DNA of 64,000 nucleotides from Lyngbya sp. CCAP 1446/10 (GTDB taxonomy: Bacteria; Cyanobacteriota; Cyanobacteriia; Cyanobacteriales; Microcoleaceae). The notes under the pieces are model-generated. The model did not search any database. It was not told the DNA's origin and worked only from the letters and a program-made list of their open reading frames with translations. The stretch spans positions 1-64,000 of the forward strand of contig NZ_JAIGNI010000033.1 of assembly GCF_026130175.1 (NCBI RefSeq). The letters run 5' to 3'. The position numbers were made by a program, and so were the translations under genes. Positions 41,329 through 41,893 of this stretch are shown here, piece by piece; position 1 is the first letter of the stretch, and the number at the start of each line of letters is the position of its first letter.

Positions 41329-41446
41329 ATCGGTTCTAGCGGGGAGCAGCCGCCAGAGGAAACGGGGAAAGTTCGGTGCAAGTCCGGCGCTGTCCCGCAA
41401 CTGTAATGAAATCCTTGTGGTTTCTCAAGTCAGAATGCCCGCCGAT
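41329..41446 (+). promoter_or_regulatory. Cobalamin (B12) riboswitch
   Basis: The conserved core is clear: GGTGCAAGTCCGGCGCTGTC, CCGCAACTGTAATG, then AAGTCAGAATGCCCGCC. The outer helix can form between ATCGG...CGGG and CCCG...CCGAT. The spacing between the core and the AGTCAG segment is short, so it is a compact variant. It ends 36 bp before the DUF1636 start, placing that gene under B12 control. On/off direction cannot be read from sequence alone; most cobalamin riboswitches repress when bound. Confidence 0.9.
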
Positions 41447-41482
41447 ATCTAACTCACTTTTAAACGCATCTGCGAGGTATGG

Positions 41483-41893
41483 ATGATGAATGGAACTAAC
41501 ACGGCTGTACGCACAAAACACTGTCTTTTAGTTTGTACTGCTTGCGCTAGTGTTTGGAAAGATGGCAAGCGCGAAGGTAAAAGTGGCGGCCAACAATTCA
41601 TGGAAGATTTATCGAAACTCGCTAAAGATTGGAAGTTTTCAGATGAATTTGATATTCGGGAAGTTGAGTGTATGAGTGCTTGCAGTCATGCTTGTGCCGT
41701 GTCTTTTGCTGCTGCTGGAAAGTATACTTATTTGTTTGGTGATTTGCCTGCCAATGAGCCGGAAAGCGTCGAGGCTGTGCTTGAATGTGCGAGTCAATAT
41801 TATGCTAAGCCGGATGGTTTATTGCCTTGGTCTGAGCGTCCTCAAGCTTTGAAAAAAGGTGTTTTGGCGAAGATTCCACCGCTGGGAAATTAG
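41483..41893 (+). CDS. DUF1636 family metal-binding protein (thioredoxin-like ferredoxin type)
   Basis: A 136-residue protein with two cysteine clusters, CLLVCTACASVW and VECMSACSHACAV, the pattern of thioredoxin-fold [2Fe-2S] proteins grouped as DUF1636. A well-supported function is not known. The family recurs near cobalamin or cobalt genes. Its control by the riboswitch 36 bp upstream ties it here to B12 or cobalt metabolism. Two in-frame ATGs (41483 and 41486) are possible starts. No other gene follows in the same orientation, so it is a single-gene regulon member. Confidence 0.88.
   Translation: MMNGTNTAVRTKHCLLVCTACASVWKDGKREGKSGGQQFMEDLSKLAKDWKFSDEFDIREVECMSACSHACAVSFAAAGKYTYLFGDLPANEPESVEAVLECASQYYAKPDGLLPWSERPQALKKGVLAKIPPLGN

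Follow-up and report, generated by a model that had tools for sequence, protein, structure and literature searches.

Background

The closest described relatives of the protein studied here are known from deposited structures. PDB entry 9JN8, a 'thioredoxin-like ferredoxin of Rhodobacter capsulatus' (ORF378), is itself a member of the DUF1636 family (phmmer E = 6.6e-17), although it comes from an alphaproteobacterium and our protein is cyanobacterial; no paper on its function was found in the literature searched. The thioredoxin-like [2Fe-2S] ferredoxin of Aquifex aeolicus (1F37, 1M2A) has the same fold. The fold of DUF1636 was predicted earlier, with a suggested role in redox homeostasis and with three of the four Aquifex cluster cysteines kept in the family, and the accessible part of that paper does not mention B12 for DUF1636 (PMC4520260). 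In what is accessible of PMC12828279, the family is placed under electron transport, glutathione metabolism and Fe-S cluster biogenesis. On the genetic side, the closest systems are plasmid-borne operons of Paracoccus, Phaeobacter and Pseudosulfitobacter with the order riboswitch-DUF1636-cobW-cobN-cobG. Here we describe a DUF1636 gene behind a cobalamin riboswitch in a 64,000-nt stretch of the Lyngbya sp. CCAP 1446/10 genome (the window). As in the Paracoccus and Phaeobacter type, the riboswitch stands directly before DUF1636, but those riboswitches are longer (about 210-240 nt, against a compact form in the window) and their DUF1636 gene heads a biosynthetic operon instead of being a lone gene as in the window.

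Riboswitch and Candidate Expression Platform

The first-pass annotation proposed a cobalamin riboswitch upstream of a DUF1636 gene, and both profile matches bear this out (Table 1), the gathering score of RF00174 being 31.5 bits and the cut-off of PF07845 31.6 bits. The aptamer match covers the full RF00174 model (positions 1-189) in 147 nt, with 7 bases in place of 56 peripheral model positions. Aligning the window leader with 22 further cyanobacterial cobalamin leaders (18 upstream of DUF1636 and four upstream of other genes in the window's genome) gives 43 invariant columns. The aptamer has an intact core and reaches 147 bits with a cyanobacterial riboswitch model built from 23 leaders before DUF1636 or other genes, a set that includes the window leader itself. 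A permissive search of the leader gave two overlapping matches of the same clan, both scoring below RF00174, and the unconstrained minimum-energy fold was no more stable than shuffled sequence (z = -0.09) and did not show the aptamer shape. The 36-bp gap to the gene given at first implies an aptamer that ends near 41446, inside the match; the Rfam match itself ends 22 bp before the ATG.

Table 1. Features of the riboswitch-DUF1636 locus, in window coordinates.
Feature	Position	Strand	Evidence
Cobalamin riboswitch aptamer, compact	41314..41460	+	RF00174 51.9 bits, E 4.9e-10 for 64 kb
UCCCGC, aptamer small P5 loop (presumed helix name), candidate L5-L13 kissing partner	41393..41398	+	inferred from sequence
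P13-like hairpin ATCTG/TGGAT, loop CGAGGTA	41468..41484	+	read directly from sequence
DUF1636 gene, 136 aa	41483..41893	+	PF07845 143.9 bits, profile 1-117 of 117
First cysteine pair C18-x2-C21	41534..41545	+	invariant in alignments of 22 and 26 rows
Second cysteine cluster C63-x3-C67-x3-C71	41669..41695	+	CxxC with CxxxC in 165 of 171 copies

Between the aptamer and the gene lies a hairpin whose loop holds the Shine-Dalgarno sequence GAGG (41474-41477) and whose 3′ strand extends into the ATG start codon. A hairpin with an equal 7-base loop is found in 19 of the 20 cyanobacterial leaders compared. The remaining leader, L055, has a variant hairpin and was omitted from the pairing count; among the 19, L115 has GACG instead of GAGG, and the outer pair is missing in L064 and L089. 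Among the 11 distinct forms of the 19 leaders, 98.2% of the pairing cells are standard pairs, while sliding controls pair far less (58.2% at best), and two of the five pairs change on both sides (G-C to A-U and U-A to C-G). In 500 shuffles, the paired cells and the covariation score were matched twice; the number of double-change pairs (2) was matched 177 times. The window riboswitch is therefore followed by a conserved, covarying hairpin suited to serve as its expression platform, and since this hairpin carries the Shine-Dalgarno sequence, control of the window gene is probably translational. A transcription terminator as the platform was rejected, with no terminator-like site found in the leader.

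A kissing-loop mechanism is known for cobalamin riboswitches. The UCCCGC of the small aptamer loop, which we take to be that of P5, is complementary to GCGAGG (41472-41477) at five of six positions, one G-U included. An L5-L13 contact formed by these bases would cover the Shine-Dalgarno sequence, so that the hairpin may hide it upon B12 binding.

A chance match of the leader was also rejected. For one gene, the rough chance expectation of a riboswitch-DUF1636 pairing is about 2e-4, and the pairing is found again in genomes of the same genus, of other cyanobacteria and of Pseudomonadota, which puts it beyond chance.

Genomic Setting in Lyngbya

The window's genome has five cobalamin riboswitches and one DUF1636 gene. 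The other riboswitches precede metE, cbiM-cbiN-cbiQ, a methyltransferase gene, and an unnamed gene upstream of desaturase and methyltransferase genes. Those before metE and cbiMNQ share the compact RNA type of the window leader but, unlike it, govern a B12-independent enzyme and a cobalt importer, respectively. MetE and MetH are both encoded, and with MetH present, repression of MetE by B12 makes sense. The window riboswitch is an ordinary one, and its targets are of known kind. The desaturase locus (L010:3462-6954, contig C124) reads cobalamin riboswitch, unknown protein, fatty-acid desaturase, methyltransferase; a cobalamin riboswitch preceding a desaturase is reported from metagenomes in the accessible part of PMC2211319. 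Small, visually similar proteins of roughly 150 aa (L042:6673-7125, L008:7307-7747, L010:4057-4539) recur in cyanobacterial cobalamin riboswitch operons, also next to metE, and the two scanned had no Pfam match.

We found no cobW directly downstream of the window DUF1636 gene; it is followed by a Uma2 family gene on the opposite strand. Three of four same-genus genomes (L059, L065 and L115) have the order riboswitch-DUF1636-COG0523/cobW, and the fourth (L116) has no COG0523 gene next. Contig C110 of the window's genome encodes a 342-aa protein that is 92-93% identical to the COG0523 proteins of L059 and L115 and is a true CobW (TIGR02475 497 bits, cut-off 332). Because three of the four relatives have the operon and the window's genome keeps cobW on C110, the lone window gene is probably a remnant of a riboswitch-DUF1636-cobW operon, judging from gene order. 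The description of the locus as a single gene thus stands for this genome, though the arrangement is probably a derived one.

Just past DUF1636, where the relatives have cobW, there is an imperfect, MITE-like inverted repeat with 33-nt arms (41911-42029). It has 16 other genomic matches, 15 of them 24-26 nt long and located at one of its ends. A cobK/cbiJ gene (precorrin-6A reductase) lies 5.3 kb downstream of DUF1636 on the minus strand (47199-47972).

Fold and Cysteines of DUF1636

The AlphaFold2 model of the window protein has a mean pLDDT of 89.1. Its top fold match is 9jn8_A (Z 17.1, rmsd 3.0 over 116 residues, 35% identity), followed by the Aquifex ferredoxins (Z 10.4-10.5 over 96-100 residues; 1m2a_B, Z 10.5 over 96), chains of the electron-bifurcating Nfn and Hyd enzymes (9-10), and formate dehydrogenase and complex I chains (about 7-8). 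The predicted model therefore has the thioredoxin-like ferredoxin fold. Four conserved cysteines are present, two per loop, with the first two spaced CxxC. The score with the [2Fe-2S] thioredoxin-like family PF01257 (14.2 bits) is below the cut-off of 24.8.

The two cysteine clusters noticed at first reading are real and correspond to C18/C21 and C63/C67/C71. Of 171 copies (82 cyanobacterial, 11 annotated and 78 from Pseudomonadota), 165 retain both CxxC and CxxxC, and the six copies outside this pattern are short or partial frames. The fifth cysteine is also present in 139 of the 171, so from the alignment C71 is dispensable within the family, and the likely [2Fe-2S] ligands are C18, C21, C63 and C67. 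An alignment to the Aquifex-related 5abr pairs C18, C63 and C67. The window protein differs from the Aquifex ferredoxin, to which it is 15-18% identical, in that the second ligand is replaced by C21 (CxxC) and in its extra, dispensable fifth cysteine. Together with the fold matches, the four conserved cysteines agree with the thioredoxin-like [2Fe-2S] pattern claimed for the protein, and we consider it likely that DUF1636 is a ferredoxin in nature. A phage or viral origin of the gene was rejected; there was no phage match, and two viral stretches that matched a pattern encode no relative.

Distribution and Gene Context

In cyanobacteria, DUF1636 was found over the cut-off in 55 of 292 sampled genomes, and 19 of the best 30 loci, the window's included, have an RF00174 match upstream. 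A riboswitch lies at most 1.5 kb upstream on the same strand in 38 of 82 copies (79 stretches), in 34 of 53 genomes. This count takes in L092 and L118, assigned by hand since their riboswitch is enclosed by an over-extended ORF, some 200 bp ahead of the domain; a partial copy over the cut-off (G278:C86) lies outside the 82, and a fragment in L114 lies outside the profile matches. The 44 copies without a riboswitch within 1.5 kb count against a B12 role. The gene next after the riboswitch-linked copies is COG0523/CobW in 10 cases, cbiJ/cobK in six, metE in two and hupE in two, and in five a TonB receptor gene followed by importer genes. More widely, cbiJ is among the neighbours of 14 of the 82 copies. 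The neighbouring GTPases of L081 and L121 are genuine CobW proteins (TIGR02475 516 and 534 bits, cut-off 332).

Two riboswitch operons contain a DUF7676 gene adjoining TonB and ABC importer genes (L056:10258-11127 and L120:12813-13685). The C-terminal stretch of the protein resembles a thioredoxin-like [2Fe-2S] ferredoxin, below the cut-off, which makes it a further ferredoxin candidate for B12 or cobalt uptake.

Among Pseudomonadota, 63 of 398 sampled genomes carry DUF1636, with 78 copies, and each of the 63 also contains one or more cobalamin riboswitches above the cut-off. Forty-seven copies lie 69-219 bp downstream of a riboswitch, eight more lie within 2 kb (55/78 in all) and five at 2-20 kb. 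The remaining 18 have none within 20 kb upstream, which again speaks against a B12 role, in a scoring that took at most 58 first-look candidates per genome and may miss some. For 41 of the 78 copies cobW is the first named gene downstream, usually with cobN after it; for 11 it is the gene for the ATPase of an ABC importer of the Fec/Btu type. The one such importer scanned (L134, Mesorhizobium) scored below every NCBIfam cut-off. Six genomes (G347, G351, G367, G411, G419 and G570) have one copy with cobW-cobN and another with the importer. For 61 copies the stretch contains a B12 or cobalt gene, as called by tblastn with 54 reference proteins, and 12 of the other 17 have a riboswitch within 500 bp. 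Altogether, 73 of 78 copies are linked to a riboswitch or a B12/cobalt gene, the exceptions being L256, L276, L283, L284 and L318. The leader is thus shared widely by other DUF1636 genes, as the first-pass annotation had suggested looking for (47/78 copies in Pseudomonadota and 38/82 in cyanobacteria), and its assignment of DUF1636 to the B12 or cobalt response is upheld by the 47 Pseudomonadota copies within 500 bp of a riboswitch and the 41 directly before cobW.

The annotated plasmid loci show the same settings, with a riboswitch within 1.3 kb upstream of DUF1636 in 11 of 18 (seven cyanobacterial and 11 from Pseudomonadota). Riboswitches precede DUF1636 in L124, L125, L126 and L128; none was found in L127. 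In Sinorhizobium the riboswitch and DUF1636 are followed by a methyltransferase and nickel-type ABC genes, and in Mesorhizobium by an importer. Leisingera has none directly upstream of DUF1636; its riboswitch is placed between DUF1636 and cbtBA. Copies with no riboswitch directly upstream lie between bluB and cobT in Sphingopyxis, before cobW on one Acaryochloris plasmid, and in Gloeocapsopsis, and the Methylibium copy lies before cbiB in a cob cluster with a riboswitch 10.7 kb upstream. The Azospirillum and Roseibium copies have neither a riboswitch nor a B12 gene in the stretch examined.

A different setting is seen in 24 of the 82 cyanobacterial copies, each preceded by a gene for a substrate-binding protein; 23 of the 24 also have a TonB receptor, and an AraC-type regulator is often present. 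These copies have no riboswitch within 1.5 kb and no COG0523 gene among their neighbours. The one receptor scanned (L104) is a siderophore receptor (TIGR01783 426.9, cut-off 223.5). In a tree that left out five of 172 copies without the cysteine motif, 23 of the 24 are included and all fall within a clade of 25 (support 0.995). Placing the whole family in B12 or cobalt metabolism therefore goes too far; the placement agrees with the survey of two phyla, but the 25-copy clade is mostly in siderophore-type operons without a riboswitch. One genome, G289 (L079, L080, L096, L104, L111, L112), has 11 DUF1636 matches (E up to 1e-3), mostly in TonB/binding-protein clusters of the siderophore type.

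Three copies in clusters with threonyl-tRNA synthetase form a small clade of their own; L105 also has a threonyl-tRNA synthetase gene nearby, yet its copy groups with the siderophore branch. The annotated L127 cluster holds folE, hisI and cysS together with two genes for GTP-binding proteins of the COG0523 cluster, and may be of the zinc-starvation type, which it resembles.

Proposed Function and Alternatives

The window DUF1636 gene very likely belongs to the B12 riboswitch regulon. Since many relatives in other bacteria are wired to riboswitches in the same way, often inside a B12 production operon, the protein very probably helps the cell to make or take up B12. Our main reading, to which we give a probability of roughly 0.5, is that it is a B12-repressed thioredoxin-fold ferredoxin for B12/cobalt metabolism that donates electrons to cobalt reduction. 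When cobalamin is scarce, the ribosome-binding site would be free and the protein made; with cobalamin bound to the leader, the aptamer would hold the Shine-Dalgarno loop and turn translation off. The protein would probably hold a [2Fe-2S] cluster on C18, C21, C63 and C67 and deliver electrons to a reduction of cobalt, present either as a Co(II) corrinoid or as a Co(III) chelate, that has to precede its adenosylation, insertion or release. In the siderophore clade the same reduction may be applied to ferric iron. We infer the electron-donor role and its target, and favour them because they explain the fold, the conserved cysteines, the occurrence in both synthesis and uptake settings, and the siderophore branch. 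Several findings go against this reading. No reductase or partner enzyme is consistently adjacent to DUF1636, its commonest neighbour CobW is a cobalt chaperone and no oxidoreductase, and three copies sit in zinc-starvation-like clusters although zinc needs no reduction. The sub-cut-off PF01257 score and a CxxC spacing unlike that of the Aquifex protein also count against it.

The chief alternative is that DUF1636 is a cobalt-handling partner of CobW, in which the ferredoxin fold is reused and the cluster need not be redox-active. We regard this as possible, though we would not expect it. It accounts better than electron donation for the cobW adjacency, which besides the Pseudomonadota copies described above includes a COG0523/CobW gene near 14 of the 38 cyanobacterial riboswitch copies, and for the zinc-type clusters, which join DUF1636 with COG0523-type GTPases; some copies also lie after cbtAB, the genes for a cobalt transporter, or before hupE. 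According to the accessible part of PMC7689651, CobW supplies Co(II) to the aerobic pathway and its contact with CobNST is still unshown, which leaves room for a partner, yet the same text names no cobalt-supply partner besides CobW. The 11 importer-linked Pseudomonadota copies have no CobW in their stretch, the 24 siderophore-type copies have no COG0523 neighbours, and the ferredoxin loops retain their four cysteines throughout. It is the importer-linked copies and the siderophore clade that lead us to prefer a general redox role over one tied only to CobW.

Narrower roles fit fewer of the settings. CobG (precorrin-3B synthase) of the aerobic pathway is an iron-sulphur oxygenase requiring electrons, and DUF1636 might be its donor, given that 37 of 78 Pseudomonadota copies have cobG in their stretch and that in many cob operons it comes a few genes after DUF1636. 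However, no cobG was named beside the importer- or cbiB-linked copies or beside cyanobacterial copies with cbiJ, metE or hupE, and we find this role improbable. Only slightly less doubtful is a B12-sparing protein that, like MetE, replaces or tolerates a missing B12-dependent activity. Cobalamin riboswitches drive B12-independent isozymes as well, and DUF1636 occurs before metE on Nostoc and Calothrix plasmids. In Acaryochloris it is close to metE and nrdAB-type genes, and in Sinorhizobium to nrdHIE and a gene for methionine synthase. Against this, the commonest Pseudomonadota settings are synthesis and uptake operons, and metE is directly next in just two of the 38 cyanobacterial riboswitch copies. 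As for the window itself, the absence of cobW beside DUF1636 could suggest that the riboswitch is a real match but a non-functional relic next to an operon-less gene; with the aptamer core, hairpin and Shine-Dalgarno sequence all intact, we consider this extremely unlikely.

Returning to electron donation, a broader version is that DUF1636 proteins are specialised thioredoxin-fold ferredoxins for reductive metal acquisition, the riboswitch branch of cyanobacteria and Pseudomonadota reducing cobalt as corrinoids are made and salvaged, and the sister branch ferric siderophores. We offer this tentatively; if true, it would supply a missing electron donor for Co(II)-corrinoid reduction.

Conclusions

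We found no paper on a B12 role of DUF1636 in a limited search, with older subscription literature and regulon supplements (PMC3766115) outside its reach. The tie of DUF1636 to the B12 regulon in two phyla appears to be unreported in the literature searched, and we do not claim priority. The tie gives DUF1636, a widespread family with no assigned function, a specific pathway that can be tested. Riboswitches and cob operons in two phyla indicate B12/cobalt metabolism, electron transfer is suggested by the fold, and the siderophore branch provides a built-in comparison. If DUF1636 is the donor for cobalt reduction, it would reveal the reductant for corrinoid adenosylation or import in these bacteria and would be useful for engineering B12 producers.
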